Below are positions 4,323 through 64,000 of a DNA stretch of 64,000 nucleotides, piece after piece. The notes below the pieces were generated by a model that worked only from the letters and a program-made list of their open reading frames with translations, was not told the origin of the DNA and searched no databases. Both the position numbers and the translations under genes were made by a program. Every line of letters begins with the position of its first letter. The first letter of the stretch is position 1. The stretch is from Hemileia vastatrix (taxonomy: Eukaryota; Basidiomycota; Pucciniomycetes; Pucciniales; Zaghouaniaceae), in assembly GCA_030280995.1 (NCBI GenBank), contig JASXTE010000001.1, forward strand, positions 31,739,700 through 31,803,699, read 5' to 3'.

Positions 4323-4480
4323 TCCTTGCTCCAGTGGATGAATAGAGCCAGACTGGATGTCCAAGGTATCATGGGAATGGCTGGGGTGCTGTTGAGCTGG
4401 ACGAGTGGCTTGACCAGTCAATAAGAGTGGATCAGGAAAGTTGAAGTCGATGGACGGACTATTAAGGAGGAAAAGGATAG

Positions 4481-4552
4481 TGTCCCCTACAGGAGTCGAA
4501 CCTGTGACCACTTATGACATGTTAGTTGCTCTAACCACTGAGCTAAGGAAAC
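4481..4552 (-). tRNA. tRNA-like gene, copy 1 (identity uncertain)
   Basis: The 72-nt cloverleaf has a 7-bp acceptor stem (two G-U pairs), D arm GCTC/GAGC, T arm ACAGG-TTCGACT-CCTGT, and good internal promoter boxes: A box TAGCTCAGTGG and B box GGTTCGACTCC. A TTTT terminator follows at about 4475. The anticodon arm is odd: the canonical register gives stem ACTAA/TAAGT with an A-A mismatch, A instead of the near-universal U33, and anticodon TGT (Thr). A shifted register would place CAT after a T. It may be a pseudo-tRNA or a tRNA relic. It is co-oriented with and just upstream of the membrane-protein gene. Confidence 0.65.
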
Positions 4553-4675
4553 CAGTGCGAGGTGTACCCACAACACCCCCCCGTGCACCGAGCTGACTAG
4601 GCAACTACCTTACCGCAGCCTGGGGATTAGCCAGATAACGCTGGGCCCATAACCTATTAAGGAGGAAAAGGATAG

Positions 4676-4747
4676 TGTCCCCTACAGGAGTCGAACCTGT
4701 GACCACTTATGACATGTTAGTTGCTCTAACCACTGAGCTAAGGAAAC
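4676..4747 (-). tRNA. tRNA-like gene, copy 2 (identical to copy 1)
   Basis: Same 72-nt sequence, internal promoter boxes, terminator and anticodon-arm anomalies as copy 1, 195 bp away. The identity suggests a recent local duplication. It lies between the divergent promoters of the membrane-protein gene and the PPR-like gene. Confidence 0.65.
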
Positions 4748-9442: not shown

Positions 9443-10294
9443 GTTGGTAGACTTTCTGAATCATTTTTGACACACCAATAACTTGATTCTGGCAACTGTG
9501 AGACCATTGACTACAAGGACCAATAAGGACTGGTGGATGACTAAAAACAACAAACATCATCAGGCATGTGACTTACTTTTTTTGCCACAACTGGGAATCA
9601 AACCTCGCTCCAAATCTAAGGTTTATATATTGGCAACTGTCATATATGTTTGTGGTGACTATACTGGTTACTATCTGTGGGTCTCACTTTTCATATTTCA
9701 TAGTTTACGTATATCTTTTTTACTCAGCAATCTGTAGTGGCATTAATTTGCTCACATTACAGGGGAAGGTGCCTGGTAAATAATAATTTTTTTTCCTAGT
9801 TGACCAAGATAGAACTATTTTGCTCTTAGTCCTAGAAGTAATATAAATTAAATTAATTATATTATATATATTTCTTTTAATTATTTCATTTGACCTTTTG
9901 TCCTGATAATTAAAATATTATATTATTGTTTCAGTTGACAAATTGTCATGGCAGTAAAATAATAAATATGTAAAATTAATTGAATTAATTATATTAAATT
10001 ATTTCAGTTGACATTAAGTCCAGATTATTATTTTTTTCAGTTGACTCTTAGTCCTGATAATTATCAACATATATATTAGTAATTAATTGAGAATTGTGTT
10101 AATTATTCCAGTTGACTCTGTGTCCTGATAATTAATAAATTATTTTATTATTTCAGTTGATTTATTTTAAATCCTGGTAATAAAATATAGATATCTTAAC
10201 TTAATAAATAAAAGATGTGATTATTATTTCAGTTTATTTTTTGTCCTGATAAACATAATATTTTCATTATTCCAGTAAATTAAATAATCCTAAT
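9443..10294 (+). other. Untranslated leader of element A1
   Basis: Noncoding and AT-rich. It contains several copies of a CAGTTGAC...TTAGTCCTGATAAT unit (for example around 9796, 9885, 10028 and 10105) that also occur in the leader of the 50.4-58.6 kb element. The leader resumes at 13521 after the Harbinger insertion. No convincing tRNA-complementary primer site follows the LTR. Confidence 0.6.
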
Positions 10295-20700: not shown

Positions 20701-20868
20701 ATTATATTTTTATTTTTATTTTTATTTGTATTTTTTTATTTATTTTTATTTTTATTTTTATTTTTATTTTTATTTTTATTTTTATTTTTATTTTTATTTT
20801 TATTTTTATTTTTATTTTTATTTTTATTTTTATTTTTATTTTTATTTTTATTTTTATTTTTATTTTTA

Positions 20869-20899
<31 letters not shown>

Positions 20900-21234
20900 T
20901 TTATTTTTATTTTTATTTTTATTTTTATTTTTATTTTTATTTTTATTTTTATTTTTATTTTTATTTTTATTTTTATTTTTATTTTTATTTTTATTTTTAT
21001 TTTTATTTTTATTTTTATTTTTATTTTTATTTTTATTTTTATTTTTATTTTTATTTTTATTTTTATTTTTATTTTTATTTTTTATTTTTATTTTTATTTT
21101 TATTTTTATTATTATTATTATTATTATTTTTATTTTTATTTTTATTTTTATTTTTATTTTTATTTTTATTTTTATTTTTATTTTTATTTTTATTTTTATT
21201 TTTATTTTTATTTTTATTTTTATTTTTATTTTTA

Positions 21235-21266
<32 letters not shown>

Positions 21267-22160
21267 TTTATTTTTATTTTTCACCACACAATATGGGGGG
21301 CGGACTTGCTAGCAAGTCCGCAACCTTGGACCCAAACTCACCATAGATTGAACACACATTGAGCTATTGATAAAGGAACCATACAATCAGGGATGAACAC
21401 CACTCAGCAGAACAGTTTTAGGTGGGTGTTCAAGTAGAGTTCAGTATGGGTTCAGTCTGAGTTCAGTCTGAGTTCCATCTTAGTTCCATCTGAGTTCAGG
21501 TTGAGGACTTGCTAGCAAGGCCACCCCCTATATTGCGTAGTGTTTATTTTTATTTTTATTTTTATTTTTATTTTTATTTTTATTTTTATTTTTATTTTTA
21601 TTTTTATTTTTATTTTTATTTTTATTTTTATTTTTATTTTTATTTTTATTTTTATTTTTATTTTTATTTTTATTTTTATTTTTATTTTTATTTTTATTTT
21701 TATTTTTATTTTTATTTTTATTTTTATTTTTATTTTTATTTTTATTTTTATTTTTATTTTTATTTTTATTTTTATTTTTATTTTTATTTTTATTTTTATT
21801 TTTATTTTTATTTTTATTTTTATTTTTATTTTTATTTTTATTTTTATTTTTATTTTTATTTTTATTTTTATTTTTATTTTTATTTTTATTTTTATTTTTA
21901 TTTTTATTTTTATTTTTATTTTTATTTTTATTTTTATTTTTATTTTTATTTTTATTTTTATTTTTATTTTTATTTTTATTTTTATTTTTATTTTTATTTT
22001 TATTTTTTATTTTTATTTTTATTTTTATTTTTATTTTTATTTTTATTTTTATTTTTATTTTTATTTTTATTTTTATTTTTATTTTTATTTTTATTTTTAT
22101 TTTTATTTTTATTTTTATTTTTATTTTTATTTTTATTTTTATTTTTATTTTTATTTTAAT
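20701..22160. repeat. Very long ATTTTT microsatellite with ATT blocks
   Basis: Almost pure (ATTTTT)n fills 20706-21281 and 21543-22157, about 1.2 kb in total, with rare phase slips (for example 20895, 21080 and 22006) and two short (ATT)n blocks at 21108-21127 and 21240-21266. A MITE divides it. The YFYF/FIFI reading frames across it are artefacts. Confidence 0.97.
21282..21542. mobile_element. CACTA-type MITE, copy 1 (261 bp)
   Basis: The ends are CACCACACAATATGGGGG and, inverted, CACTACGCAATATAGGGG, each followed inward by the palindrome GGACTTGCTAGCAAG(TCC). The interior has several GAGTTCAGTCT-like repeats and no ORF. TTT flanks both sides, compatible with the 3-bp duplication of CACTA (EnSpm) elements, but the TTT-rich target makes this copy uninformative alone. 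Copy 2 at 28916 settles the ends. Confidence 0.88.
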
Positions 22161-23300
22161 TTAATTTTTTATGTTAGTTTAAATTTTATATAAAAGAAAA
22201 CAAAGCAAATAATATGAAAATGAAAGGGAAAAGAGTAAAAATAGAAAAAATATAGTAATGGAGATAAATGAAAAAATGATAGAAAAGAGCTTTAAGGTTT
22301 TGGCTTAGTGGAATACCAAGAATGAAAATTTTTGACAATTTTGTTGAATTAGATAGTTTGATATCATGTTCCATGATGTGCGACATCAGTATTTACAGAG
22401 GATAAGGTAAGAATTTAAGTAATTGAATGAGCTATAATAGATATAAGTTAAATCTATAAGGAGATTTAATAGGATTTTATACTTTATTTTATAATAAAGT
22501 AACTCTCCCATTGAACAGTTGTAAATTGAACTTATTTCATTTATCAATTTAATTATAAATTATGTATAGAATAAATAGAAATTTAATAATAAAGTAACTC
22601 TTTGATTGAACAGTTGTAAATTGAAATTATTTTATTTTTTAATTTAATTATAAATCATGTATTGAAAATATAGAATAGGGGTTTGAAATTAAATTAGTTA
22701 TATAAAATCTATTAAAATAGGATTATTCTCAACAACTACAATGAACACCTTTTGTACTAAATAATACATTGCGGGAAAAAATGTGTCACATTTGTGTTAT
22801 GGGTGGCTATTTCTTGCATTCAAAAAGGAAATGATATCTTGTTATGAAACATGACATCTGATCTTGCACATGTCACACATGTGCTTATAGGGGTGTTTAA
22901 TTGAGTTATGGGGTGTGTGTGTGATGTATGTACTGCAAGACAGTTGTGTTATTTTAGTTCATGTAACATGTGCATGAAATGGGCTCACATACTTTGTCAT
23001 GTTTTATTACAGGAGATTATCACCCAAAATAGAAATATAACACAGCTTCACCAGCAGTGATAATTACAATGTGAATTTGTTAAAGTTAAAACAGTTTATT
23101 GATAAATACAATAATAAAATTAAAGTGAAATAAGAGTAAATAAATTGAAATTAAACAAAGTTAAATAAATTCATTTGAAGAGACAATTTGAAGATTGTAA
23201 AGATTAATAGATTGAAATGAATATAAATAAGATTTAATAAAAATAATTAAAAATAAATATTTTATTAAACCAAGAGTTAAAGTCAAAGTTTTAGTAAAGA
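22161..23300. other. AT-rich DNA without genes
   Basis: Nothing coding is seen. It includes a 95-bp tandem pair (22491-22680) and a TG-rich stretch around 22860-22930. It may be internal LTR sequence of an unidentified element whose end is at 23726. Confidence 0.4.
22491..22680. repeat. 95-bp tandem duplication
   Basis: The units at 22491-22585 and 22586-22680 share ATAATAAAGTAACTCT, TTGAACAGTTGTAAATTGAA and AATTTAATTATAAAT, with moderate divergence. Confidence 0.75.
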
Positions 23301-34210: not shown

Positions 34211-35366
34211 TGTGGTAGCCTAAAGTTTAGTATGGCACCTAAATATGTAAATGGAGTTATTACGGCATGCAAGATTGGTGTTATTATTTTTTTAAAAAGG
34301 GTTTTATTTAATTTATTGGAGTTTTAAATATGAAGAAATTGGTCACGAGCAAATGCCTACACGAAAACAATTTATTTTGCGGAGAAAACTTATTTTTACG
34401 GTCTGAAAAATTTATAAGTATTAAGTCGAGTCACTCAAGAACCTTGGGAAATTTTTCCAGAATTTTTACTATTTTTCTTATATTTTTAAATGAATTTTAA
34501 AGTTTTATAGAAATATTTACGTTTTTCAAAAATTACTTAACTTTGATGAATTTTCACGGGATAATTAGAGCTGCGCAGACTACGAAAATTAGTTTGGTAG
34601 GTAAAGGGGAAGTAGCTCTATTATGTGTAATTTTTCTAGATTTTTTATCATGGTTTTAAGGTTCTAAATTGAGTGCGGAAGTCCGGACGGACTCCGTTTC
34701 GACTCCGTACGGACTCCGTACGGACTCCGCTTTGACTCCGTACGGACTCCGTACGGACTCCGTACGGGCTCCGGATTGACTCTGGAAGAGCTCTGGAGGG
34801 GAAAACTTAGGCACGTGACTAGGAATACTTAAGCGACTCTCAAACTCGAAATTGAGGGGGGGGGACACATCATACAGCTTAATCTTTAACCACTACAGTC
34901 TCATTTTTTATTACTCAACAAATTAAAATAACTTGTAATACCCTTATAACATTATTATTTTTACATAACATTTTAGAAATACAATTCAACAGTTTAAATA
35001 ACACTTCATACAGGGTTTCTTTAGAAAGGTCTTCATCTCTGGGACTTGTTTATTGCTGTCTCATAAAAATTCAAAATATTATAAAAACATAAAAGTCAAT
35101 CTTTTCAGATCTTTCACTGGTACACCTTAATTGTTGTTATCAGTATTTCTTTATCAACAGCCACTTTCTTTAAATCTCAATAAGCGTTAAATATTTTAGA
35201 GTTTCATTATTTTTTATTAATCCGATCCAAGTAGATTGGTTAGCTTAGTGATTTAGAACACCTACTTTGTTATTTTTATTGGAAGGACGGGGTTTTCAGC
35301 TAAATCCACATATCTCCTCCGGATTCTGCTTACAGCAAGGCGACTGTAAGAGTTTACCTTACCATA
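34211..35366 (+). repeat. 5' LTR, family C
   Basis: Begins TGTGGTAGCC and ends TTACCAT(A). It includes an 11-bp tandem array and a G run. No strong TATA box was recognised. Confidence 0.92.
34691..34774. repeat. 11-bp tandem array in family C LTR
   Basis: Seven units of ACTCCGTACGG (two degenerate: ACTCCGTTTCG and ACTCCGCTTTG) plus a partial GCTCCGG. Each full unit makes CCGTACGG, an 8-bp palindrome. An identical array is at 45750-45833. Confidence 0.92.
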
Positions 35367-35368
35367 GT

Positions 35369-35385
35369 TGGCGCCCAACGTGGGG
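35369..35385 (+). promoter_or_regulatory. Primer-binding site of family C
   Basis: TGGCGCCCAACGTGGGG, two or three bases after the LTR. TGGCGCC starts are typical of tRNA-3'-end complements used by Ty3-type elements. The same 17 bases occur in family D at 62420. Confidence 0.85.
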
Positions 35386-35436
35386 TTCGATTTCTCTAGC
35401 TTTCTTTAAAGACTTTCTGGGATCAAGAACGTTATT

Positions 35437-35500
35437 AGCCTGCAAGAGGCTTATTTTCTGGAACTCTAATTGGATTTTTGTTATTGGCCTGCAAGAGGCT
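35437..35500 (+). other. Two short hairpins in the family C leader
   Basis: AGCCT-GCAAG-AGGCT (35437-35451) and GCCT-GCAAG-AGGC (35487-35499). The 50-bp segment containing them is repeated (ATTAGCCTGCAAGAGGCTT and ATTGGCCTGCAAGAGGCTT). GCAAGAGG is shared with the pol hairpin motif, so they may be relatives. Confidence 0.6.
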
Positions 35501-35542
35501 TGTTATTTTATCGATTGTTAACGCTTTTCATTACTTATTGGG

Positions 35543-38152
35543 ATGTCTTCTTCTGCTGTTGCTTCTGGATCTTCTAACCCTATTACTCCCTCAGTTAGAA
35601 TTGTTTCTTGGGATGGCCCAAAGTTTGATGGGGAGGAGGTTAAATGGTTCATTAGCAGGTATGAAGCTGCTGCTGCTGTTGATGGTGCTTCCCATGTGGA
35701 TATGGTGAAGCAAGTTAGATTTTTTATTGCCGATAGGGAGGTGGAAAAAGAGGTTATTGCTATGCAGGCATTTAAGGACAAGGATTGGGTTAAGCTTTCT
35801 AAAGCTATGGTTGATAGATGGGGTGTTAGGTTTACTATGATGGACCTCAACAAAATTGTAGGTGACTGGCAAGCTAAAGGTGGTGTTTCTTCAATGGTGG
35901 ACTTCAAAAAACTTTGTGTTCAGTTTGATGAAGTGGTAGAATATCTTATTTTGGTGGATGAATTAGTGCATGAAAATCAAGCAAAAGATTTGTTTTGGTC
36001 AGCATGCAGTAGGGATATTCGAATGGACGTCTTGAAGGATCTCTCAAGAAAGAATTTAATGAAGGAACTGCCAAACGGTGAGCAGAAGTTACCGGCTCTG
36101 GAGGTTATTAAAGAGAACATCCAAGCCCATCTAAAGTTATTAGCGTTGGACAAGTATCAAGAGTCTTGCACTCAATATGTCAGTAAGGTTAGCGAAGTTT
36201 TGGCCGAGAACAACGATATTATGGTCAAAGCCCAGGAGGCCAAGAAGGCACAAATGGGTGTTCCTGCTGCTAAAGTTGAGGGCAATGTAGACAACAAGAT
36301 GGTCGATCACTTGGCCGATTTAACGAAACAGCTAAAGATATTTGTCCAAGAGACTCAAAAGGCCAGTAAGGCCCCAATCGCTTCCTCGTCAACATCGACT
36401 TCTTATCAGTCTAGAGGGTATGAACGTCGAAATTATAATGGCAATAACAACGGTAACCGCTTCCCAGGCAATGGGAGAAATGGTGGGAATGGTGGTAATG
36501 GATATAGAGGTGGCTACAATGAGCCAAAGGTGTGCTCCTATTGTAATAGGAGGGGTCATAGAGCAACAGTTTGTTTTGCTCTTGATAAGGATATGGATGC
36601 TGGGCGAGTTTTATTTGATGGTAAAGTTTATAAATTTCCTGACGGTTCGTTCATCAAGCCCAGTGATGGACAGTCTCCTTCTGATTTGGTCAGAAGAAGT
36701 TTAACGGCTGAAAGGAGAGCCAGATTTGAAGAGGTGACGGATGAAGATGTTAATGCCAAGAGTGGCAAAAATGGTAATGGTAATGGTGGTAAAGCTGACA
36801 AGGGCAAGGAGAAAGAGGTCAGTAAAGCCACATTTTCTACTTCTTTTGGTGGTTTAGAGCTGGCGACGGTTGCCCAGGTGGAGGGTAGCTGTATGGCTGG
36901 CGAATACGATGTTAATGCTGCTAGAAGAGCAGCTGCTACTAAGGCGAAAAGTAGCATTCAGAGCCAATTGAGGGCTAATCCTGGCAAGGCCAATAACAAA
37001 GTGAACCCTTACTCTAAGGACAAGAATTCTAGTGCTCAAACTGCCGCCAACAAATTGAACCCTTACTCTAAGGACGAATTATATAAAATGCAGAAGGGGA
37101 TTGCTGATATGGGGCCCCCTAGTTATGGCAAGTTTGATTTAAATGGTGAGCCTATGCCAGAGGACGATTCGGATTCTGAGGAGGACGTACCGTTGGCGTC
37201 TCTACCCAGACCAAGTTTTAGCGGTCCCATCCCAATGGAGGGTGTAAGAAGGACTAGCGATGGATCAGGATTAGTGCAAGAAGCTGGTGACGGAGTTAGG
37301 GTTATAGAAAGTGAAGATGTTATAATGGGGGGTGAAGATGGCTCGGTTGGACCTCAAGAGGTACCCAGGGCCAAGGTTGTTAAATCAAAGGTCCAGTATG
37401 AGCGGCCAGTAGTTTCTGGTCAAGCTAATGCGATGGACGCAGTTTTGAATAGGGTGAATCAACTGCAGATTCCCTTATCTTTGGGGGAGTTATTTACGAT
37501 TAGTCCGGCGCTTGCTGAAAAGCAAAAGAAGCATTTGACGAGGCGTCGGGTTTCCACTGGAGAGGTGGAATATATTTGTGAAAATGCTGAAAAGTTTGGG
37601 GAAGATGTAGATACACATTTTTCCGCTCCCCTGGGTTACCTGGTGGTAACTCTTAATGGTAAAGAAGTAAAGGCCTTGGTCGATTCAGGGTCTCAAATTA
37701 ATTTAATTTCATTGGAGCAAGCAACGAGTATAGGCTTGCCAATTAAAAGTGGAACTGGGGGAAACCTCAGAGGTATTGGAGGGCATGCAACAGAGCTAAT
37801 GGGTACTGCTGAGCATGTCAGGTTAGGCATTGGTGGATCTGTTGGTAAGGTTCACTTTTACGTGGCCAGAGGAGCAGTCAAAACTGTTCTTGGTGGTCCT
37901 TTTTTGATGGATTTTGAGGCCAGGATAGGGTATCAAGCTGGCATGGGGATTAGTTTGGAGATCACTGGTGAAGATATGCGGAGGTTACATATGCGGTTAG
38001 CACCTCCTGGAGATGAAGGTTGGGAAACACGGCCAGGGATTACTACTCTGTGCCAGTGTTGTGTTTGCACCAAGAAGCGGCATATTAAACGGACGGCTTC
38101 TGGTGAATTATGTTTGTTGGAAAGGGATGGATGCCCTCATTTTTTGGGGTAG
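35543..38152 (+). CDS. Gag-protease polyprotein of family C
   Basis: 869 residues, intact. The N-terminal half is a helical capsid region (starts MSSSAVASG; WDGPKFDGEEVKWF), homologous to the frameshifted gag at 62507. A Gly/Asn-rich linker leads to a classic zinc knuckle CSYCNRRGHRATVC (about residues 331-344, CX2CX4HX4C) that binds genomic RNA. After a charged, Ser-rich spacer comes a retropepsin-like protease with VDSGSQINLIS (catalytic Asp about residue 714) and a flap-like LGGPFLMDFEARIGY. The C terminus is Cys-rich (CQCCVCTKK). The stop TAG at 38150 lies directly behind a slippery heptamer that would pass ribosomes to pol. Start: the first ATG after the leader, matching the start in family D. 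Confidence 0.92.
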   Translation: MSSSAVASGSSNPITPSVRIVSWDGPKFDGEEVKWFISRYEAAAAVDGASHVDMVKQVRFFIADREVEKEVIAMQAFKDKDWVKLSKAMVDRWGVRFTMMDLNKIVGDWQAKGGVSSMVDFKKLCVQFDEVVEYLILVDELVHENQAKDLFWSACSRDIRMDVLKDLSRKNLMKELPNGEQKLPALEVIKENIQAHLKLLALDKYQESCTQYVSKVSEVLAENNDIMVKAQEAKKAQMGVPAAKVEGNVDNKMVDHLADLTKQLKIFVQETQKASKAPIASSSTSTSYQSRGYERRNYNGNNNGNRFPGNGRNGGNGGNGYRGGYNEPKVCSYCNRRGHRATVCFALDKDMDAGRVLFDGKVYKFPDGSFIKPSDGQSPSDLVRRSLTAERRARFEEVTDEDVNAKSGKNGNGNGGKADKGKEKEVSKATFSTSFGGLELATVAQVEGSCMAGEYDVNAARRAAATKAKSSIQSQLRANPGKANNKVNPYSKDKNSSAQTAANKLNPYSKDELYKMQKGIADMGPPSYGKFDLNGEPMPEDDSDSEEDVPLASLPRPSFSGPIPMEGVRRTSDGSGLVQEAGDGVRVIESEDVIMGGEDGSVGPQEVPRAKVVKSKVQYERPVVSGQANAMDAVLNRVNQLQIPLSLGELFTISPALAEKQKKHLTRRRVSTGEVEYICENAEKFGEDVDTHFSAPLGYLVVTLNGKEVKALVDSGSQINLISLEQATSIGLPIKSGTGGNLRGIGGHATELMGTAEHVRLGIGGSVGKVHFYVARGAVKTVLGGPFLMDFEARIGYQAGMGISLEITGEDMRRLHMRLAPPGDEGWETRPGITTLCQCCVCTKKRHIKRTASGELCLLERDGCPHFLG

Positions 38153-41100
38153 CAGGGGCTGATCGCTCTAATGTTGTAATCTCTCCTCAGGATGAGATCC
38201 CGGATTGCAATAGGTCAGCTCACTTGGAGATAATTCAAGTGGATTCTCAATTATTTTCTGTTAATATTACTCTGGAGTGCAAATACGTTATGGACTTTTC
38301 TATATGTTTATTGGATTTACCCGGTTTTTCTATTAAATTTAAAAATGGTGAAAAAGGCAAAATGGGCCAAATTAGGTTGGATAAAAATTGGAAGGGTATG
38401 TTTGATTACCTCCAGCAAGAGGTTAAACTGCAATTATCTCCTTCTATTCCGGACCTCCAGCAAGAGGTTAAACTGCAAAAATTACATCAAAACTCTATTA
38501 AAAATCTCAGTATAAGTAAAACACAAAAAAATAACTTATGTGAAAATGTTATTCGGGACCTCCAGCAAGAGGTTAAACTGCAATTATCTCCTTCTATTCC
38601 GGACCTCCAGCAAGAGGGTAAACTGCAATTAACTCGTCAAAACTCAATTAAAAATCTCAGTATAAGTAAAACACAAAAAAATAACTTATGTGAAAATGTT
38701 ATTCGGGACCTCCAGCAAGAGGTTAAACTGCAATTATCTCCTTCTATTCCGGACCTCCAGCAAGAGGGTAAACTGCAATTAACTCGTCAAAACTCAATAA
38801 AAAATCTCAGTATAATTAAAACACAAAAAAATAATTTTTGTGAAAATTCAATTCCGGTTCTCCAGCAAGAGGTTAAACTGCCAACTTTCTTTACGGGTGA
38901 TTTACTGTTGGATAAGGGAAGCAAAGGTGTTGGAAAATCTGTTTATAAATTAGACGAGGGAAAGGAGAAAAGGGTAAAATTTAAAAATGAAATAAAATAT
39001 TTTTCTAATTTTTCTTATTCCGATTCTGACGATGAAGAAGATTCATTTAATGAAAGTTTTAATGGCGATGTTTTACCTCAAGCTTATTTAGATGTGGACG
39101 CAGCTAAATATAAGAAAGTAGCAAATAAAGTTCGACCTATTAATGAACCGCTACCTGCTGAATTAAATCCACCTTTGAGAAGACCAAGGTTATCAAGAGA
39201 TCCTTATGAAAGTCCCTTGGTAAAGAATCCGCCTGAATTTTCTGAGACGTCAAGAATCACTTTTGAGAGACTGGGTGTTGTTAATTTTGGACCTGATGGT
39301 TGGTTGTCTGGAGAAGAGAAGAAGTTGTTGTTGGATGTGATGGTCAAGCGAGAGAAGGCCATTGCTTTTGTAGAAGAGGAGAGGGGTGTGTTGAAGCATT
39401 CCTATGGGGAGCCTTACAAGATTCCTGTGGTATGTCATGAACCGTGGCAGCAGAAACCGATTCCTATTCCGGCTGCATTGAAAGAAGCTTATATCGAAGT
39501 TGTCAGAGAACGGATACGCACTGGACTTTATGAGCAATCAACGTCAAGTTATTCTAGTCCAGTATTTTGTATCAAGAAACCAAATGGCAAGCTTAGAGTT
39601 GTTCATGATCTTAGGGAATTAAATAGGGTTACAATAAAGGATGCTGGGATACCACCTAGTGCTGAGGAGTTTGTTGAAGCGTTTGCAGGGAGAGTGTGTT
39701 ATGGTTTGGGAGATATTATGGGCGGATATGATGAGAGAGAGTTACATCCGGACTCAAGGCCTCTCACTACATTCGATACGCCACTTGGACGTTTACAGTT
39801 AACAAGATTACCTCAAGGAGCAACAAATTCGGTTGCAGTTTATCAAGCTCAGATGGCTTGGATCCTTCAAGATGAAATTCCACAATATGCTGGAATCTTT
39901 ATAGATGATGGAGGAATTAAGGGACCAACAACCGACTATGATAACCAGGTGTTGGAAGAGAATCCCGGGATACGCAAATTCATTTGGGAGTTTGCAATTA
40001 CTTTAGAAAGAATCTTGTTTCGAATTGAAGAGGCTGGTTTAACTATTTCAGGTTCAAAATTTTCATGTTGTGTGCCAGCCTTAGAAATATTAGGCCATGT
40101 GGTATGTAGAGAGGGTAGGATTATGTCCAAGAAGAAAGTTAACAAAATTCAGTCCTGGCCAAGACCCAAGAATACAACCGAAGTTAGAGGGTTTTTAGGC
40201 GTTTGCGTATATGTTAGAATGTTTATCAAGGACTTTTCTTCATTGGCAGCTCCATTGAGACGGTTAACGAGAAAGGATGCAGACTGGGAGTGGGATGAAG
40301 AGTGTGAGAAGGCGTTTGTGAAGTTGAAGGAGGTTGTAGGGAAGGATTTAGTCCTGCACAAGTTAGATTATGGAAAAGATGCTGGTAGAATTTATTTAGC
40401 AGTTGATTCAAGTCAGGTTGCAGCTGGGGCGGTTTTGTCTCAGATGGATAAAGCTGGTTACATCAGGCCAGTTAGGTATGAATCTGTAGTATTTACTGAG
40501 GTCGAATCAAGATATTCTCAACCAAAATTGGAATTATGTGGTGTGGCGAAAATACTGAAGAAACTTCAGCATATTTTGTGGGGGCAACATTTTGAGTTGC
40601 AAGTGGATGCGAAATCGTTAATCCAGATGATTAATTCCCCAAGTTTACCGAACGCACCCATGACGAGATGGGTAGCTTTTATTCAACATTTTTCATTTGA
40701 TTTAGTTCATAAGCCTGGCAAGACTTTTACTATGCCAGATGGTTTATCAAGGAGACCACCCACTGAAGAAGATTCAGACTCAGAAGAGTTTGATGAAGAT
40801 ATACCTACTATCAAAGCCAGCACTAAAGGAGCTGAAGACTTTCCATACCTCCCCTATGAGGTTAAACTGGCAGGACTATTGTGTTTAGATTATGATGATG
40901 ATGACCTCCACCAAGAGGATAAACTGGAAAATAGTTTTTATGTTAAAAGAGGTGTAGGAAAAGGTGTAGATAAATTCGGCAGAGAGGAGGTAGAAGAAGA
41001 TGTGGTGTATGTAGAGGAAAATGGATTGGTAGTGTGGGATAGTAGTAAATTAAGGAATGGTGTATATGTTGGAGAATTAGAGAACTTAAATAAAAAGGTG

Positions 41101-42585
41101 GATAAAGAGAAAGAGGTATTTTCAAATACGGTTTTCGAAGGATCCAAAGGTTCAGAAGAAAAACGTCGACATAGCTCGATTAAAGATTTAATTAGGGGTC
41201 AACGATTATTGGCTCATTCATGTGCAGGTGATATTGGTGATAGAGAAGTCCCTATTGATGTTATATTAATCGATTTTCAAGATGAAGTCTGGGGTCAGAC
41301 TGGTTTTTATTTTTTGTTAGTCAAATATTTGTTGACTTTAGAGAGGCCAGAAGATTGTGAAGACGATGAATGGGTGGCTATCAAGAGGAAGTCATCTACG
41401 TTTTACCTATCTGGTCGACGTTTAATGAGGAGAAGGTATCCAAATCCTCAAGTAGTTATAACTCAACAGAAGGGGCAAGAATTAGTTTTGAAATCACTGC
41501 ATGAAGATCTCGGGCATAGAGGCGTTGGAGAAACGTTTAGAAGAATTTCTGATCGATTTTGGTGGCCTGGCATGAAGATGGCTGTTAAACAGTGGGTTCA
41601 GTCATGCGAAGAATGTCAAAGACGAAGTTATTTAAGGCCAAAAGAACCTGGACGCGCGACCGGTGAATATACGCTCTTTGGAAGAGTTAGTTTAGATGCA
41701 GTTCATATAAAAGAGGGACGGTATAAATATTTAATTGTGGCCAGAGATGATTTATCTGGTTGGGTAGAGGCAGCGCCTCTTATTAATTTAACTGCCAAAA
41801 ATGTGGCAGAATTTTTTTTGAATAATTGGGTATATAGGTATGGGGTGAAGAAGTTGGTGACGGTAGATGGAGGTCCTGAATTTGGGACAGAGTTTAAAGA
41901 GGCCGTATTGAAAGTTGGATCAAAGGTTAGGGTAGCAACCCCATATTATCCTGAAGCTGAAGGCATGGTTGAAAGAGGTCATCAAGTTATCAAGGATGCT
42001 TTAGTTAAAATGTGTGGGACAAGTGCCGAAAAATGGAGGCACTATTTACCTTTAGTTTTATTTGCTGATCAAATCACTGCCAAAAGGACGACCAGATTTT
42101 CACCTTATGAACTTGTTTTTGGACAGAAAGCAGTTTTACCGGTTGATTTAGAAGCTGAATCATATCTTGGAGTTGACTGGGACATGGTCAAAACTACTGA
42201 AGAATTATTGTGTGCAAGAATGATGCAGCTAGAAAAGAAAGAAGAATATTTAGAAAAGGCATATTGGCGGATGATGAAGATCCGAAATCAATCAGTTAGA
42301 TATTGGGATGAGCGGTTGGCACATCGATTAAGGAAACCTTTGAACCCAGGTGATATGGTCCTGGTGTATAATAGGAGTTTGGAAAGTCAGTGGGGAAAAA
42401 TGTTTGCAGATAGGTGGAATGGACCGTATAAAATCAAGGAGCAAGTTTCCGGCGGTTCATATGTGCTAGAAGAGTTGGATGGAGTTGTATTGAAGAAGAG
42501 GGTAGCTGCCGATCAAGTGAAACGGTTCTATCCTAGAGGCACCAGGAGTGTCGAAGTCTTCCTCCGCAATGAGGATAAACTATGA
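38110..42585 (+). CDS. Pol polyprotein of family C (RT, RNase H, integrase)
   Basis: The 1491-codon open frame probably begins in vivo at the frameshift (about 38141), not at its ATG. An N-terminal linker with three 50-residue in-frame repeats (38409-38880) precedes RT: VFCIKKPNGKLRVVHDLREL, GRLQLTRLPQGATNS and the catalytic IFIDDGG at about 39893 (F/YxDD). RNase H spans about 40381-40755 (LAVDSSQVAAG; KLELCGV; LQVDAKS; MPDGLSRR). After an acidic linker with two more hairpin-motif copies comes integrase: HHCC finger (LHEDLGHRG...CEECQ), DDE core (LDAVH, VDGGPEFG, AEGMVERGH) and a GPY module (RWNGPYKI). It ends FLRNEDKL inside a hairpin motif. No stops or shifts; likely active. Confidence 0.92.
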   Translation: MFVGKGWMPSFFGVAGADRSNVVISPQDEIPDCNRSAHLEIIQVDSQLFSVNITLECKYVMDFSICLLDLPGFSIKFKNGEKGKMGQIRLDKNWKGMFDYLQQEVKLQLSPSIPDLQQEVKLQKLHQNSIKNLSISKTQKNNLCENVIRDLQQEVKLQLSPSIPDLQQEGKLQLTRQNSIKNLSISKTQKNNLCENVIRDLQQEVKLQLSPSIPDLQQEGKLQLTRQNSIKNLSIIKTQKNNFCENSIPVLQQEVKLPTFFTGDLLLDKGSKGVGKSVYKLDEGKEKRVKFKNEIKYFSNFSYSDSDDEEDSFNESFNGDVLPQAYLDVDAAKYKKVANKVRPINEPLPAELNPPLRRPRLSRDPYESPLVKNPPEFSETSRITFERLGVVNFGPDGWLSGEEKKLLLDVMVKREKAIAFVEEERGVLKHSYGEPYKIPVVCHEPWQQKPIPIPAALKEAYIEVVRERIRTGLYEQSTSSYSSPVFCIKKPNGKLRVVHDLRELNRVTIKDAGIPPSAEEFVEAFAGRVCYGLGDIMGGYDERELHPDSRPLTTFDTPLGRLQLTRLPQGATNSVAVYQAQMAWILQDEIPQYAGIFIDDGGIKGPTTDYDNQVLEENPGIRKFIWEFAITLERILFRIEEAGLTISGSKFSCCVPALEILGHVVCREGRIMSKKKVNKIQSWPRPKNTTEVRGFLGVCVYVRMFIKDFSSLAAPLRRLTRKDADWEWDEECEKAFVKLKEVVGKDLVLHKLDYGKDAGRIYLAVDSSQVAAGAVLSQMDKAGYIRPVRYESVVFTEVESRYSQPKLELCGVAKILKKLQHILWGQHFELQVDAKSLIQMINSPSLPNAPMTRWVAFIQHFSFDLVHKPGKTFTMPDGLSRRPPTEEDSDSEEFDEDIPTIKASTKGAEDFPYLPYEVKLAGLLCLDYDDDDLHQEDKLENSFYVKRGVGKGVDKFGREEVEEDVVYVEENGLVVWDSSKLRNGVYVGELENLNKKVDKEKEVFSNTVFEGSKGSEEKRRHSSIKDLIRGQRLLAHSCAGDIGDREVPIDVILIDFQDEVWGQTGFYFLLVKYLLTLERPEDCEDDEWVAIKRKSSTFYLSGRRLMRRRYPNPQVVITQQKGQELVLKSLHEDLGHRGVGETFRRISDRFWWPGMKMAVKQWVQSCEECQRRSYLRPKEPGRATGEYTLFGRVSLDAVHIKEGRYKYLIVARDDLSGWVEAAPLINLTAKNVAEFFLNNWVYRYGVKKLVTVDGGPEFGTEFKEAVLKVGSKVRVATPYYPEAEGMVERGHQVIKDALVKMCGTSAEKWRHYLPLVLFADQITAKRTTRFSPYELVFGQKAVLPVDLEAESYLGVDWDMVKTTEELLCARMMQLEKKEEYLEKAYWRMMKIRNQSVRYWDERLAHRLRKPLNPGDMVLVYNRSLESQWGKMFADRWNGPYKIKEQVSGGSYVLEELDGVVLKKRVAADQVKRFYPRGTRSVEVFLRNEDKL
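38140..38146 (+). promoter_or_regulatory. Candidate -1 ribosomal frameshift site
   Basis: T TTT TTG in the gag phase (CAT TTT TTG GGG TAG) is an X XXY YYZ heptamer, two codons before the gag stop. A -1 slip gives TTT TTT GGG GTA, continuing in the open pol frame as FFGVAGADRS. The two frames overlap only around here (38110-38152). No pol ATG with a plausible independent context is needed. Confidence 0.7.
38409..38880 (+). repeat. 150-bp in-frame tandem repeat in pol linker
   Basis: Hairpin pairs recur with exact 150-bp period: copies start at 38409, 38559, 38709 and 38859, each followed 45 bp later by a second hairpin (38454, 38604, 38754). The unit translates to DLQQEVKLQLSPSIP plus DLQQEGKLQLTRQ plus an NSIKNLSISKTQKNNLCENV-like spacer. 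Divergence between units is very low. Confidence 0.92.
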
Positions 42586-43499
42586 TATCAATGAAACTTT
42601 ATGGATACCTCCGCAATGAGGATAAACTATGACATTTATGAAAATTATACGGATTCATCCGCAACGAGGATAAACTATCTTCTTATTTTTATCAAAAATA
42701 CTTTACTATCGTTACACTTCCTATGGGCGACGAAACTATGATGAAACATAACGAAATACGAGAAAACCTTCATTGAAATTTTTCAAAAATTAAAATTCTT
42801 AAAATATGGGTGAAGATAGTGTTGGAAAATTTTTAAAAATTTATTGGAAGAAGTGTTCACAGGGGAACCTTCTTAATTTAATATTGGCAAGTGTGGGGGT
42901 AATTGATGGGCTGGCTGCTCTATACACAATTACCCCATAATGTTCGTTTCCAAAATTTTCCCTGTTTCTAGTTGAATCCTGGCTTTGTCTTTTAATTTTA
43001 GGAAGTCCACTAAGACTATAAACTGGAAAGAATCAAGAGACACCGCTCTCAACGCCGGATTCAAGATTTTTTTTATTTTTTTATTTTTATTTTTATTTTT
43101 TTTGTTTTTGATTTTTTATGTTAGATTGTGATTTCTTTTCTTTAATATATATTATGAATTAATGTAAAGGTGATGCTCACTGGTGGTCTCTAATCATTTT
43201 TATAAATTGGAGGGAGCCCACCCAGTGATCATCATTATAAAAATTATCTTCTAAAAACTTTCATTTATTTTCTTTTCTTTTCAATTACTCAAAATTGTGT
43301 AACCACATCAAGTTGCACTTGGATGTGGGTATGATGTCGAGGGTACGGCTCATCAAATGGCCGGGGGGCATCTTTTAAAATTTTATTTTGAAAAATTTTT
43401 TATTAATTTTTTTATCTTTCTTTTCACATTCATTTATCTTTCTTTAAAATTAAATTTTAAATTTTATTTCAAAACTATCTATTCTAAAATCTTTTATTT

Positions 43500-43502
<3 letters not shown>

Positions 43503-43538
<36 letters not shown>

Positions 43539-43547
43539 AAAATTAAA

Positions 43548-43578
<31 letters not shown>

Positions 43579-43690
43579 TAATAATAAAAATAAAAATAAA
43601 AATAAAATAAAAATAAAATAAATAATAAAAAAAAATAATAATAATAAAATAAAAAAAATTAAAAAAAAAATTAAAAAAAAAAAAAAATAA
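43503..43690. repeat. A-rich tract with AAAAAT repeats
   Basis: About 35 A at 43508-43536, then (AAAAAT)n and mixed A/T to 43690. Low-complexity DNA; replication or assembly length errors are likely here. Confidence 0.9.
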
Positions 43691-43837
43691 ATAAAAATAA
43701 TTAATTAAATCAAAATTATTATTATATTTCTTAGTTTTGTTTTTCAGTCTTCATTCTTTTTAGTTTTATTTATTTAGTTTAGACAGGAAACAGGGTCTAG
43801 GGGAACTCAATACCTATGGGATTTTACTTCAAGACAG

Positions 43838-44110
43838 CTGTTAGTCCTTCAAGACTTTAAACTGGCTACTGTTCAAGACGTTCTTTAAGGTTTTTTATAC
43901 ATATTTTGGATCTGTTAGTCCTCCAAGACTTTAAACTGGCTACTGTTCAAGACATTCTTTAAGGGTTTTTTTATACTAATTTTGGAGCTGTTAGTCCTCC
44001 AAGACTTTAAACTGGCTACTGTTCAAGACTTTCCTTAAGGGTTTTATACGAATTTTGGAGCTGTTAGTCCTCCAAGACTTTAAACTGGCTAATTTTCAAG
44101 ACTATCGTTA
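43838..44110 (+). repeat. Four tandem units of about 74 bp carrying the hairpin
   Basis: Units at 43838, 43912, 43988 and 44061 start CTGTTAGTCCTCCAAGAC and continue TTTAAACTGGCTACTGTTCAAGAC..., with spacing of 74, 76 and 73 bp. The spacer varies while the hairpin and its tail stay constant. Confidence 0.88.
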
Positions 44111-45258
44111 AAATTTTTTATTGGATTTGTTAGGTCCACCAAGACCTTAAACTGGACTATTATCAAGTGTTGGGTCCACCATGACCTTAAACTGAATTTC
44201 TTATCGATTAAATGTTTGGTCCACCATGACTTTAAACTGGTAGTTCATTCATTGTTTAGTCCACTATGACTTTAAACTGGAAAATTAATATCTGCAGGAT
44301 AATTCAACATTCATTGGACCACTATGGCCTTATACTGGATTACTTGTTGATCAAATGTTTGGTCCACTATGACATTAAACTGGATTATCAAATTTATTCA
44401 ATCTTTGGTCAAGCCTAGGCCTTACTTAGGAATATATCAAGATATTTATGCACTTAAACGATCTTTGGTCCACCAAGACCATAAACTGGCAATCGATTAT
44501 ATGTTTGGTCCACCAAGACTTTAAACTGGAATGTCAATCTTGTTTGGATAACTCAATTCAATCTTTTAATTTATCACTGTCCACTAAGACTTTAAACTGG
44601 TTAATCAATTATTTCTGGAATTGGGTGCTGATAAGCTTTAGGAGGTTAAAATTTTAGGTGGTAATGATGCTAAGGAAAGCATAATGGTTAATTAGGTGAA
44701 ATTTGTGGCGCTTTAACATGGTCTAAAGTTAATATTATTATTGGAAGCCTGGCAAAAGTATTTTATGGGTTTGCTGTATAGCAAAGTTTGAAAATTGTGA
44801 TGAAGGAATCAGAAGTTAGGATGGTAGTTGGATTTTAGGGAATGATTTTTTTAGTGCCTCATAGTTAGGCCATTTTTTTTTTGGTGTGAAGCTTGGAGGA
44901 CCTTATGGCGAGATTGGAATCATAGAATTCGGCTCAGTGGGGGGCCCTATGAGGTTGGAATCAGGAGTATTCGGCTCATAGGAAGATCCACTCTCTCAAT
45001 GCTGTGACAAGAAGGAAGACTGGTATATGGGAGTCTGAAGGGATTCAAACCTTGCTCTCAGTAGTGGAATCATCACAAGATTTATTTTATTTTATTTTAT
45101 GTTATATCAAGCCAGAGAAGAAAGAAAACATCATTTATGTTGAAAGTTTAAGAAGACCAGCTAAAACAAATTTATCAAATTATTTTATTAGAAAAGATAA
45201 TTCTTTTGGAATTGTTCAACCACTTATGCAAAGCTTTAAGAATGAGGACATTCTCGAT

Positions 45259-45269
45259 TGGAGGGAGGA
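45259..45269 (+). promoter_or_regulatory. Polypurine tract of family C
   Basis: GGAGGGAGGA directly before TGTGGTAG, the expected plus-strand primer. Confidence 0.8.
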
Positions 45270-46426
45270 TGTGGTAGCCTAAAGTTTAGTACGGCACCTA
45301 AATATGTAAATGGAGTTATTACGGCATGCAAGATTGGTGTTATTATTTTTTTAAAAAGGGTTTTATTTAATTTATTGGAGTTTTAAATATGAAGAAATTG
45401 GTCACGAGCAAATGCCTACACGAAAACAATTTATTTTGCGGAGAAAACTTATTTTTACGGTCTGAAAAATTTATAAGTATTAAGTCGAGTCACTCAAGAA
45501 CCTTGGGAAATTTTTCCAGAATTTTTACTATTTTTCTTATATTTTTAAATGAATTTTAAAGTTTTATAGAAATATTTACGTTTTTCAAAAATTACTTAAC
45601 TTTGATGAATTTTCACGGGATAATTAGAGCTGCGCAGACTACGAAAATTAGTTTGGTAGGTAAAGGGGAAGTAGCTCTATTATGTGTAATTTTTCTAGAT
45701 TTTTTATCATGGTTTTAAGGTTCTAAATTGAGTGCGGAAGTCCGGACGGACTCCGTTTCGACTCCGTACGGACTCCGTACGGACTCCGCTTTGACTCCGT
45801 ACGGACTCCGTACGGACTCCGTACGGGCTCCGGATTGACTCTGGAAGAGCTCTGGAGGGGAAAACTTAGGCACGTGACTAGGAATACTTAAGCGACTCTC
45901 AAACTCGAAATTGAGGGGGGGGGGACACATCATACAGCTTAATCTTTAACCACTACAGTCTCATTTTTTATTACTCAACAAATTAAAATAACTTGTAATA
46001 CCCTTATAACATTATTATTTTTACATAACATTTTAGAAATACAATTCAACAGTTTAAATAACACTTCATACAGGGTTTCTTTAGAAAGGTCTTCATCTCT
46101 GGGACTTGTTTATTGCTGTCTCATAAAAATTCAAAATATTATAAAAACATAAAAGTCAATCTTTTCAGATCTTTCACTGGTACACCTTAATTGTTGTTAT
46201 CAGTATTTCTTTATCAACAGCCACTTTCTTTAAATCTCAATAAGCGTTAAATATTTTAGAGTTTCATTATTTTTTATTAATCCGATCCAAGTAGATTGGT
46301 TAGCTTAGTGATTTAGAACACCTACTTTGTTATTTTTATTGGAAGGACGGGGTTTTCAGCTAAATCCACATATCTCCTCCGGATTCTGCTTACAGCAAGG
46401 CGACTGTAAGAGTTTACCTTACCATA
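45270..46426 (+). repeat. 3' LTR, family C
   Basis: Nearly identical to 34211-35366, including the 11-bp array at 45750-45833. It ends ACCAT(A) against the CTGT target copy. Confidence 0.92.
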
Positions 46427-62506: not shown

Positions 62507-64000
62507 ATGGCTTCTGGTTCTGCTATTCCTGTGGTGACTGTCAGTGGGGGGGATGGTCCTCCTTCTGTGATGGTTAGGGAGTGTGTGAGGATTAAAACTT
62601 GGGATGGTACCAAGTTTAATGGGGAGGATGTCAAGTGGTTTCTAGAGAAGTATGAAACTGCTGCTGGAGTGGATGGTGCTTCCTACCTGGACATGGTGAA
62701 GCAGATTATCTTCTTCATTGGTGATAGGTCAGTGGAGAAGGAGATTGTGGCCATGTCTGGCTACAAGAAGAGGGATTGGAAATTGTTGTGTAGGGAAATG
62801 GTGACAGATGGGGTGTCAGGTTCACTATGGTGGATCTGAACAAGGTTGTCAGTGAATGGCAATCTTATGGTGGTGTTGGTAACTTACATAGTTACAGGAA
62901 GTTTCTGCTACAGTTTGATCCTGTGGTGGAATACTTGGTGGAAGTGGAGGAGCTGGCACATGAAAATGCTGCCAAAGATGTTTTTTGGTCTGCCCTGGCT
63001 AGAGATGTCAGGATGGATGTGTTGAAGGAGTTGTCAAGAAAGGAATTGATGAAGACTCTTTCTAATGGGGACCAGAAGTTGCCTGCCTTGGATAAGGTGA
63101 AGGAGGCTGTTGAGGCCCATTTGAAGTTATTGGCTGTGGACACCTATCAGGAGGGGTGTGCCAAGTATGTCAGAAAAGTCAGTGAGGCTTTGGCTGAAGA
63201 GGAATTTAGGGAGAAGAAGGAGGAGAAGGATTTGGTGCAGGTTCCCAAACAGGAGAGGGACCCAATGGTGGAGCAGTTGGCTGATCTGACAAAACAGCTG
63301 CACATTTTTGTCCAGGAGGCCAAGAAGGTTAATAAGGCACCTTCTCAGCCAAGAGATTTTGAAAGGAGGGCTGGTAGGAGTGATCCTTGGGTTTGCTCTT
63401 ATTGCAGTAGGAGGGGGCACAGGTCCAATGATTGTTGGGCACTGAACAGAGATGTGTCTGAAGGAAAAGTGGAGTTTGATGGCAGGGTTTTAAGTTCCCT
63501 GACGGTTCTTTTGTGAAGCCCAGTGAGGGGCAGGCTCCTGTTGATTTGGTCAGGAGAAGGGGTGGTCTCAATAAAGGGGGCCAAGGTTTGAGGAGATTCC
63601 TGATCAGGGGAAGTCTTCTGTTAAGGTAGATGAGGACGTCAAGGGAAAGGGGAAGGAGGTCAATAAGGTCTCTTTTTCTACTTCTTTTGGTGGTTTGGAG
63701 TTGTATTCTTGTGGTGGACAGTCAAGTGTTGAATGCTTGGCTGGTGTTTATGATGTGGAAGCAGGGAAGGTGGGTAGGCCTAAGAGCAGTTCTCAGGCCC
63801 AACCAAAGACAAACGCTTCAAAGGGTGATCCTAAGCTGAGTGCAGCTAGGAAGAGGTACAGCAAAGAGAAGCTGTACAATATGCAGAAGGGTATGGCTGA
63901 CATGGGCCCCCCTAGTTTTGGCACATTGGACATGAATGGTGAGCCAATGCCAATGGAGGTGGATTCTGACTCCAAGGAGGATGTCCCTTTGGCTTCATTG
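62507..64000 (+). pseudogene. gag of a family D element, frameshifted, runs off the window
   Basis: Starts MASGSAIPVVTV and aligns along its length with family C Gag (TWDGTKFNGEDVKWF; DVFWSALARDVRMDVLKE; ADLTKQLHIFVQEAKK). Single-base losses shift the frame near 62810 (before the RFTMVDLNKV-equivalent) and near 63495 (VYKFPDG-equivalent), and a further shift lies near 63590. The zinc knuckle CSYCSRRGHRSNDC (about 63396-63437) keeps CX2CX4HX4C. The frame is again parallel to family C at GPPSFGTLDMNGEPMP up to the window edge. Confidence 0.85.

Follow-up and report, generated by a model that had tools for sequence, protein, structure and literature searches.

A covarying, coremin-like RNA hairpin multiplied in Ty3/gypsy-type retrotransposons of the rust Hemileia vastatrix, possibly acting as an exonuclease-stalling array

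Coremin (GUCCGAAGACGUUAAACUAC) is a small RNA motif of viruses that resists 5'-3' exonucleases. Here, we describe a closely similar hairpin in a 64,000-nucleotide (nt) stretch of the Hemileia vastatrix genome (contig JASXTE010000001.1, positions 31,739,700 to 31,803,699; hereafter the window), where 26 copies reside in one long terminal repeat (LTR) retrotransposon of the Ty3/gypsy type. Coremin comprises a first hairpin (hp1) of 4 base pairs (bp) with a YGAD tetraloop or a YGNNAD hexaloop, a spacer of 8-10 nt and a second hairpin (hp2), which is required directly after the spacer and can be as small as 2 bp (PMC10520033). The motif stalls Xrn1 one nt before hp1 and also slows scanning ribosomes, and coremin-like motifs have been surveyed in fungal viruses, in coding sequences and across stop codons (PMC10520033). 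In the context of beet necrotic yellow vein virus (BNYVV), the hexaloops CGCAAU and CGAAAU were resistant to Xrn1 in vitro, whereas hexaloops without a G at position 2 (CAGAAA, CAAGAA, CAAAGA, CCGAAA) failed (PMC10520033). A 55-nt region containing the motif is enough to make 5'-3' exoribonucleases stall in vitro, and noncoding RNA3 (ncRNA3) can be produced by yeast Xrn1 or plant XRN4 (PMC5869530). Coremin RNA is also reported to bind the viral suppressor p14 of BNYVV in the yeast three-hybrid system (PMC13431473). Among the matches listed in our searches of the mostly open literature, coremin was confined to viruses and no Xrn1-resistant RNA was found in a retrotransposon; a search on rust, Ty3 and hairpin likewise gave nothing on the motif among the matches listed, as judged by title and start of abstract. 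The priority of a coremin-like motif in a retrotransposon is not proven.

The pattern STCCNNNAWGASNNTAAACTR has 24 matches in the window, all on the plus strand and within 38410-44599, and none in 100 dinucleotide shuffles of the same sequence. Together with two imperfect copies (42656-42677 and 44316-44337), they make up 26 sense-strand units in one element, with the consensus N[G/C]UC-CNNNAW-GA[C/G]N-W-UAAACU[A/G]. This agrees with the initial annotation, made from the letters alone, which had reported about 26 hairpins, and a recount of its arm classes gave identical numbers: CCTC/GAGG in 10 units, AGTC/GACT in 6 and GGTC/GACC in 3, plus three G-U versions (at 38859, 44218 and 44507) and four single mismatches (at 42656, 44316, 44361 and 44578). 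Two of its statements need adjustment. The proposed tail WTAAACTGG holds in part, the exact 9-mer having 14 occurrences in the element and a single further one in the window (8074), but the tail reads NTAAACTGC in the units of the linker between protease and reverse transcriptase (RT) and ATAAACTAT at the pol stop, leaving TAAACT as the constant part. And where ten copies had been placed in pol with one more across its stop, we find nine units well inside pol and a tenth (42561-42582) whose last base directly precedes the TGA stop (42583-42585). Of the 24 exact units, 14 lie in noncoding sequence, and the pattern search found none in gag or the 5' region of the element. Several are tandem duplicates with periods of 45, 47, 76 and 150 bp, and the median spacing of neighbours up to 80 nt apart is 40 nt. 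A covariance model termed R1 recovers the 24 exact units and one imperfect unit; up to E = 1, it has no other match in the window. The exact units below are based on the pattern match, the R1 match and their listing in the unit-bearing loci, and the coding ones also on codon analysis.

38409 to 38430, plus strand: unit 1, CCTC-CAGCAA-GAGG with TAAACTG, coding (LQQEVKL)
38454 to 38475, plus strand: unit 2, CCTC/GAGG, coding
38559 to 38580, plus strand: unit 3, CCTC/GAGG, coding
38604 to 38625, plus strand: unit 4, CCTC/GAGG, coding
38709 to 38730, plus strand: unit 5, CCTC/GAGG, coding
38754 to 38775, plus strand: unit 6, CCTC/GAGG, coding
38859 to 38880, plus strand: unit 7, TCTC/GAGG (U-G), coding
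40848 to 40869, plus strand: unit 8, CCTC-CCCTAT-GAGG, coding (LPYEVKL), RNase H-integrase linker
40905 to 40926, plus strand: unit 9, CCTC-CACCAA-GAGG, coding (LHQEDKL)
42561 to 42582, plus strand: unit 10, CCTC-CGCAAT-GAGG-A-TAAACTA, published hexaloop form (YGNNAD), last pol codons (LRNEDKL, stop)
42608 to 42629, plus strand: unit 11, CCTC-CGCAAT-GAGG-A-TAAACTA, published hexaloop form, noncoding
42656 to 42677, plus strand: unit 12, imperfect, CATC/GAGG, loop CGCAAC (R1 E=0.51)
43004 to 43025, plus strand: unit 13, AGTC/GACT, right after a 3'-splice-like site (TTTTAG, then G)
43843 to 43864, plus strand: unit 14, AGTC/GACT, start of the tail cluster
43917 to 43938, plus strand: unit 15, AGTC/GACT
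43993 to 44014, plus strand: unit 16, AGTC/GACT
44066 to 44087, plus strand: unit 17, AGTC/GACT
44133 to 44154, plus strand: unit 18, GGTC/GACC
44173 to 44194, plus strand: unit 19, GGTC/GACC
44218 to 44239, plus strand: unit 20, GGTC/GACT (G-U)
44258 to 44279, plus strand: unit 21, AGTC/GACT
44316 to 44337, plus strand: unit 22, imperfect, GGAC/GGCC with TATACTG (read from sequence; not an R1 match)
44361 to 44382, plus strand: unit 23, GGTC/GACA (one mismatch)
44467 to 44488, plus strand: unit 24, GGTC/GACC
44507 to 44528, plus strand: unit 25, GGTC/GACT (G-U)
44578 to 44599, plus strand: unit 26, TGTC/GACT (one mismatch)

The hairpin is a conserved, covarying, sense-strand structure at the RNA level. 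Relaxed unit patterns have 130,660 matches in the 747.6-Mb assembly compared to 32 for reversed-pattern controls. At arm pair 2, the G-C version (GTCCNNNANGACNWTAAACTG) accounts for 65,048 matches and the C-G version (CTCCNNNANGAGNWTAAACTG) for 24,208, with no match to either reversed control, while the mismatched combinations G..G and C..C occur 185 and 238 times (controls 1 and 0); given that the copies are related, these genome counts are not independent events. The roughly 100 mismatched copies of each kind that were listed look like scattered single mutations. A fair test is provided by a sample whose selection ignored the arms (loop Y...AD, spacer TAAACT[AG]; 164 instances from 25 sources, 89 of them distinct, chance matches included). 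In these 89 units, arm pairs 1 to 4 are Watson-Crick in 59, 77, 80 and 76 cases, whereas in 2000 shuffles the number for pair 2 averaged 38 and reached at most 55, and that for pair 1 at most 49. When G-U is admitted, the figures rise to 66, 78, 81 and 77, all four pairs being standard in 53 units. A 4-bp hairpin with conserved inner pairs, as in coremin hp1, is thus present; pairs 3 and 4 are near-invariant and hence uninformative on covariation. An alignment of 44 units, hand-picked towards paired ones, has 96.6% of its cells paired versus 28-47% with the partner slid, and no pairing was found for an arm extended by one pair (-16,-1).

All 151 units found in 13 loci (at most one mismatch) lie on one strand per locus, and in the 12 loci with a pol match this is the strand of pol. 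Families that share only 70-85% identity with the window element in the C-terminus of pol have units at the same sites. Of ten 10-kb stretches taken at even steps along the 71.4-Mb contig of the window, two (L021 and L024) carry units, and R1 found none in the other eight. We also considered that the three arm types might be unrelated tandem repeats, which the initial annotation had named as grounds for its own refutation. This view is not supported: the arm types have loop frame and spacer in common, the A-U, G-U and G-C versions of pair 1 adjoin one another in the tail, and the linker between RNase H and integrase in locus L071 has yet another arm type, the fourth, TGTC/GACA. The earlier claim of a conserved RNA structure is supported.

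The hairpin is under RNA-level constraint in both coding and noncoding sequence. In pairwise alignments downstream of pol, core positions of the motif carry 435 substitutions in 6127 comparisons (7.1%), its free positions 542 in 2291 (23.7%) and positions elsewhere 18,367 in 100,542 (18.3%); these figures are a contrast rather than a significance test, as the comparisons overlap and the query units were picked by similarity. They cover 12 loci downstream of pol and all of L016, in which no pol end was found; the pol end of L020 was extrapolated from a 25-residue match, alignments shorter than 150 bp or above 95% identity were left out, and the class "elsewhere" holds LTR, flank and an antisense frame where a locus has them. 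Within pol, the units encode the peptide L-x-x-E-x-K-L with the codons CTC, GAG, AAA and CTG or CTA, for which the joint P, given this peptide, is ~0.001 per site, as computed from the rest of the same pol for four sites, counting the 38.4-kb array as one. The leucine codons involved are rare in this pol (CTC 4.8%, CTG 5.6% and CTA 4.0% of leucines).

At the sequence level, hairpin and spacer are a close match to hp1 and spacer of viral coremin, and the remark in the initial annotation that no described family of this kind was known is not supported. All 24 exact units have UAAACU, which is part of the search pattern, in the position of the coremin spacer (GUUAAACUAC); it is followed by A in 2 of them and by G in 22. 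The two with A (42561 and 42608) are also the only ones with a published loop type (YGAD or YGNNAD), combining a CGCAAU loop with UAAACUA; CGAAAU appears in the genome listing as well. Across the genome, where the unit patterns themselves fix C1, A5 and D6 of the loop, the base at loop position 2 and the base after UAAACU are G,A in 13,732 matches (the published hexaloop form; control 2), H,A in 5,406, G,G in 3,286 and H,G in 108,236, an odds ratio of ~84; loops of published type thus make up 13,732 + 3,286 of the 130,660 matches. The 53 distinct fully paired units divide in a similar manner, with 6 G,A, 3 H,A, 4 G,G and 40 H,G. Many H,A copies are G,A copies with one G-to-A change in a CpG (first ~100 places listed) and look like products of decay.

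The locus L071 represents a more distant family (pol identity ~68-70%, and 52% in one more variable piece). Its six units all end in AAACTA, four with the full TAAACTA, and five of the six loops are YGNNAD; units in the linker between RNase H and integrase have TGTC/GACA or CGTC/GACA arms, and those at the pol end CCTC/GAGG. Since these units are mostly of the published form, the H/G form may have arisen from an ancestral published form through a paired change. That loop G and spacer A change together suggests a tertiary contact between loop and spacer, which would fit the published idea that the two touch (PMC10520033). If this reading is true, the switch from loop-G/spacer-A to loop-H/spacer-G would reveal a contact that had remained an open point in the published work on coremin, and the H-G for G-A double change makes for a concrete structural prediction.

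The 2.7-kb noncoding tail after pol contains three further structured modules, with edges taken from the sequence.

42847 to 42937, plus strand: M2, structured RNA of two hairpins that precedes unit 13 (RNAalifold z -9.9, 23 sequences)
43177 to 43228, plus strand: M3, long hairpin TCACTGGTGG...CCCAGTGA (RNAalifold z -4.7, 11 sequences)
43303 to 43372, plus strand: M4, two hairpins, CCACATCAAG... and GATGTC...GGCATC (RNAalifold z -3.2, 13 sequences)

Near-identical copies were dropped from the module alignments. M2 folds at -26.0 compared to -4.0 for column shuffles, and its core has 8,335 exact genome matches (control 0); in the related locus L014, it is found at ~6550-6650, 6810-6905 and 9690-9790. 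The interval between M2 and the following unit carries a pyrimidine tract and a YAG, resembling a 3' splice site. No pair of M3 is represented by two Watson-Crick types among its 11 sequences. The outer stems of M4 differ by copy when compared by eye (GCATTG/CAATGC, GGTATC/GATACC, GATGTC/GGCATC), and this outer stem is not part of the RNAalifold structure. In the window, M2-M4 have no Rfam match at gathering score; at this score, Rfam returns only two tRNAs in the whole window and no family in the element. A relaxed threshold gave seven matches in the window tail and one in L014, all far below gathering score and none credible as a known RNA. The tails of related loci also contain an antisense frame (L014, 8351-9328, minus strand; also L011, L013, L016, L018, L019, L020, L198, L201 and L202; weak in L015 and L021). 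Its proteins are 45-95% identical in pieces across loci and share a Cys-rich segment, CX2CX6C; they have no Pfam match.

What might such an array do? We propose, with the balance evenly poised, that the units stall or delay exonucleases. Loop (CNNNAW) and single-stranded 3' UAAACU spacer of the 4-bp hairpin would probably touch. Xrn1 would enter from the 5' side once the element RNA is decapped or cut, and would be halted or delayed just upstream of successive units: in the protease-RT linker, in the RNase H-integrase linker, at the pol end, after M2 and in the tail cluster. RNAs that share their 3' end and retain the structured tail (M2-M4) might then survive as a ladder, analogous to viral ncRNA3 or subgenomic flavivirus RNA (sfRNA). 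Because the hp2 that coremin requires is missing, single units may stall weakly and act by number. The tertiary contact, the Xrn1 stall, the 3' fragments and the benefit to the element are steps that we infer. Exoribonuclease stalling was absent from the possible roles listed in the initial annotation, of which RNA packaging and a selfish micro-hairpin are taken up below. Xrn1 does matter to Ty3-type elements, as yeast Ty3 shows: in xrn1-deletion yeast, the element has more RNA and Gag3 and yields less cDNA and transposition (PMC4589538). The likeness of the motifs suggests that retrotransposons and RNA viruses may protect their RNA by the same trick. The full form of this proposal, namely that rust LTR retrotransposons captured or evolved the coremin fold, in dozens of copies per element and >100,000 in the genome, as an array turning decay into a ladder of stable 3' noncoding RNA, is more tentative and falls short of an even chance.

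Several results weigh against an exonuclease-stalling array. No hairpin above chance directly follows the spacer: after near-identical downstream flanks were dropped (151 units reduced to 77), the mean best adjacent hairpin is -1.29 kcal/mol versus -1.46 in shuffles, and only 25 of the 77 flanks beat their own shuffle mean. Likewise, no clear hp2 was visible by eye in the 21 distinct published-form units listed. Of the exact window units, 22 of 24 lack the loop G and have UAAACUG, and CAGAAA, one of the loops that failed against Xrn1, is the loop of natural units in L015 (1929) and L020 (3275). Only arm pairs 1 and 2 vary, 23 of the 89 arm-blind units have pair 1 unpaired, and the genome counts come from related copies. 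Finally, ten pattern-picked viral or prokaryotic loci score 20.9-33.1 bits with R1, overlapping the window units; a model as short as this does not distinguish one unit from a chance match. The motif itself was matched 33 times in 257 Gb of prokaryotic contigs, each time singly, compared to ~60 estimated for random sequence of even composition, and three in viral contigs. The published-form pattern has at least 120 matches in viral contigs (79 single and 1 double among the 80 loci listed), which we have taken as chance; the tetraloop-form pattern gave one match. Given that hp2 is missing, that the hexaloops without G at position 2 tried in the BNYVV context failed and that R1 cannot separate a unit from chance, we call the units coremin-like and do not class them as coremin. 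If it works, the motif would act like coremin with another loop chemistry, or with a neighbouring unit or a partner replacing hp2.

Other explanations have to be weighed against an exonuclease-stalling array. Numerous units in pol and tail that keep to one strand, together with the CCHC-like knuckle seen by eye in gag, would also be expected of dispersed packaging or assembly signals, in which Gag or a host protein binds hairpin and spacer and the number of copies drives selective assembly. The reported binding of coremin to BNYVV p14 in the yeast three-hybrid system (PMC13431473) lends this view some support, but it leaves the absence of copies from gag and the 5' region unaccounted for and would reduce the coremin match to coincidence or a shared protein-binding fold; we consider it unlikely. 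Less probable still is a link to splicing or processing, in which M2, pyrimidine tract, YAG and the first hairpin unit (M1) form a repeated 3'-splice-like cassette with the hairpin as an exonic signal. When M2 copies that have identical flanks or lack a GGG(G)TRA stem just upstream are discarded, 34 remain. A unit comes after 33 of them, at a distance of 81-88 nt in 32 cases and of 117 nt in one, and in 29 of these 33 a YAG lies no more than 12 nt ahead of it; yet the coding copies and most tail-cluster copies are not preceded by M2.

The tandem duplicates with their 45-, 47-, 76- and 150-bp periods could instead speak for a selfish micro-hairpin, that is, functionless short repeats spread by template switching or slippage, whose likeness reflects recent copying. 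We find this slightly harder still to accept, as core positions change less than their neighbours and the motif's own free positions, both arms change together, and the same places are occupied in the 70-85% identical families and in the more distant family of L071. A DNA operator array, for instance for the antisense gene of the related tails, appears very improbable: in L014, the 5' side of the antisense frame is only ~100 nt from the cluster starting at 9432, but a DNA-binding protein would need neither constant orientation nor complementary arm changes, and the pol copies are far away. A repeated peptide motif in the Pol linkers (L/V-x-x-E/D-x-K-L), with the DNA likeness secondary, was rejected and retains hardly any credence. 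All ten pol copies do share one frame, which is explained in part by the UAA stop that the spacer would introduce in one other frame, while 14 of the 24 exact units are noncoding and the leucine codon use is unusual for this pol.

The carrier of the array spans 34211-46426 and has the order LTR, gag, protease, RT, RNase H, integrase that defines the Ty3/gypsy type, in common with rust elements of Puccinia relatives.

34211 to 35366, plus strand: 5' LTR (TGTGGTA...TACCATA; blastn of flanks, ends read from sequence)
35522 to 38152, plus strand: gag-protease reading frame, stop to stop (open reading frame list; aspartyl protease domains)
38107 to 42585, plus strand: pol reading frame with RT, RNase H and integrase, in another frame than gag (open reading frame list; domain search)
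45270 to 46426, plus strand: 3' LTR (blastn against the 5' LTR)

By blastn of the flanks, the LTRs are 99.8% identical over 1157 bp, with coordinates derived from BLAST offsets. A 4-bp target duplication, CTGT, is legible by eye in the flanks; a scripted search demanding TG..CA ends found none. The pol frame overlaps the gag frame by 46 nt. The integrase zinc-binding domain scores 69.2 (cut-off 25.5) and the integrase core (rve) 30.1, below its cut-off of 32.6. An 11-bp repeat built around the palindrome TCCGTACGGA recurs 8.4 times in each LTR (34682-34773 and 45741-45832); Zn2Cys6 factors typically target CCG..CGG palindromes. Elsewhere in the window, a gag-like fragment without Pfam match (62794-63516) resembles the gag of the carrier by eye and is probably a related copy running past the window end. 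Two tRNA-Thr (TGT) genes with equal scores lie 195 bp apart on the minus strand (4480-4552 and 4675-4747), and 20705-22162 consists of 1.46 kb of TATTTT-type repeats (~240 units).

Among the matches listed, the RT region is 60-72% identical to Puccinia-named proteins. A peptide scan of 120 of the 738 homologues found an in-frame trace of the published form only in the Puccinia-type Pol proteins P0014 (LCNEVKL and LRDEGKL) and P0015 (LRNERKL), and these are peptides that published-form coremin would encode. The protease-RT linker of both proteins contains another repeated peptide, KVSPPNCAPLGQDA..SKTLPCAT and variants. A protein search with the Puccinia coronata linker returned P0015 and P0014 only, and no relative of P0014 was confirmed in viral contigs.

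A coremin-like fold in retrotransposons would, if true, mean that exonuclease stalling, hitherto known from RNA viruses, also serves genome-resident elements. Covariation in >100,000 natural copies could then show how so small an RNA stops a processive enzyme, and the question would arise whether stable 3' fragments bear on RNA silencing or on the spread of elements in giant rust genomes. With the exonuclease-resistant RNAs (xrRNAs) of flaviviruses and of tombus- and poleroviruses, the rust array would share the proposed outcome, stalled 5'-3' decay and 3' fragments, as well as repeated structures in a 3' tail, while theirs are elaborate stem-loops with pseudoknots and tertiary contacts (PMC10520033). 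Compared to coremin, or xrRNA_C, of beny-, cucumo-, hypo-, chryso- and other RNA viruses, the rust motif differs in its host, an LTR retrotransposon with 26 units in one element and the genome-wide abundance noted above (relaxed patterns), in the non-G base at loop position 2 and the UAAACUG of most units, in the C-G/G-C swap at arm pair 2, and in the lack of an hp2 above chance. Both have in common a 4-bp hairpin, a loop that starts with a pyrimidine and ends in A-D, with a 6-nt variant known for coremin, a UAAACU spacer in the same register and an occurrence in 3' untranslated regions, in coding sequence and over stop codons, and some of the rust units fit the published YGNNAD plus UAAACUA form.

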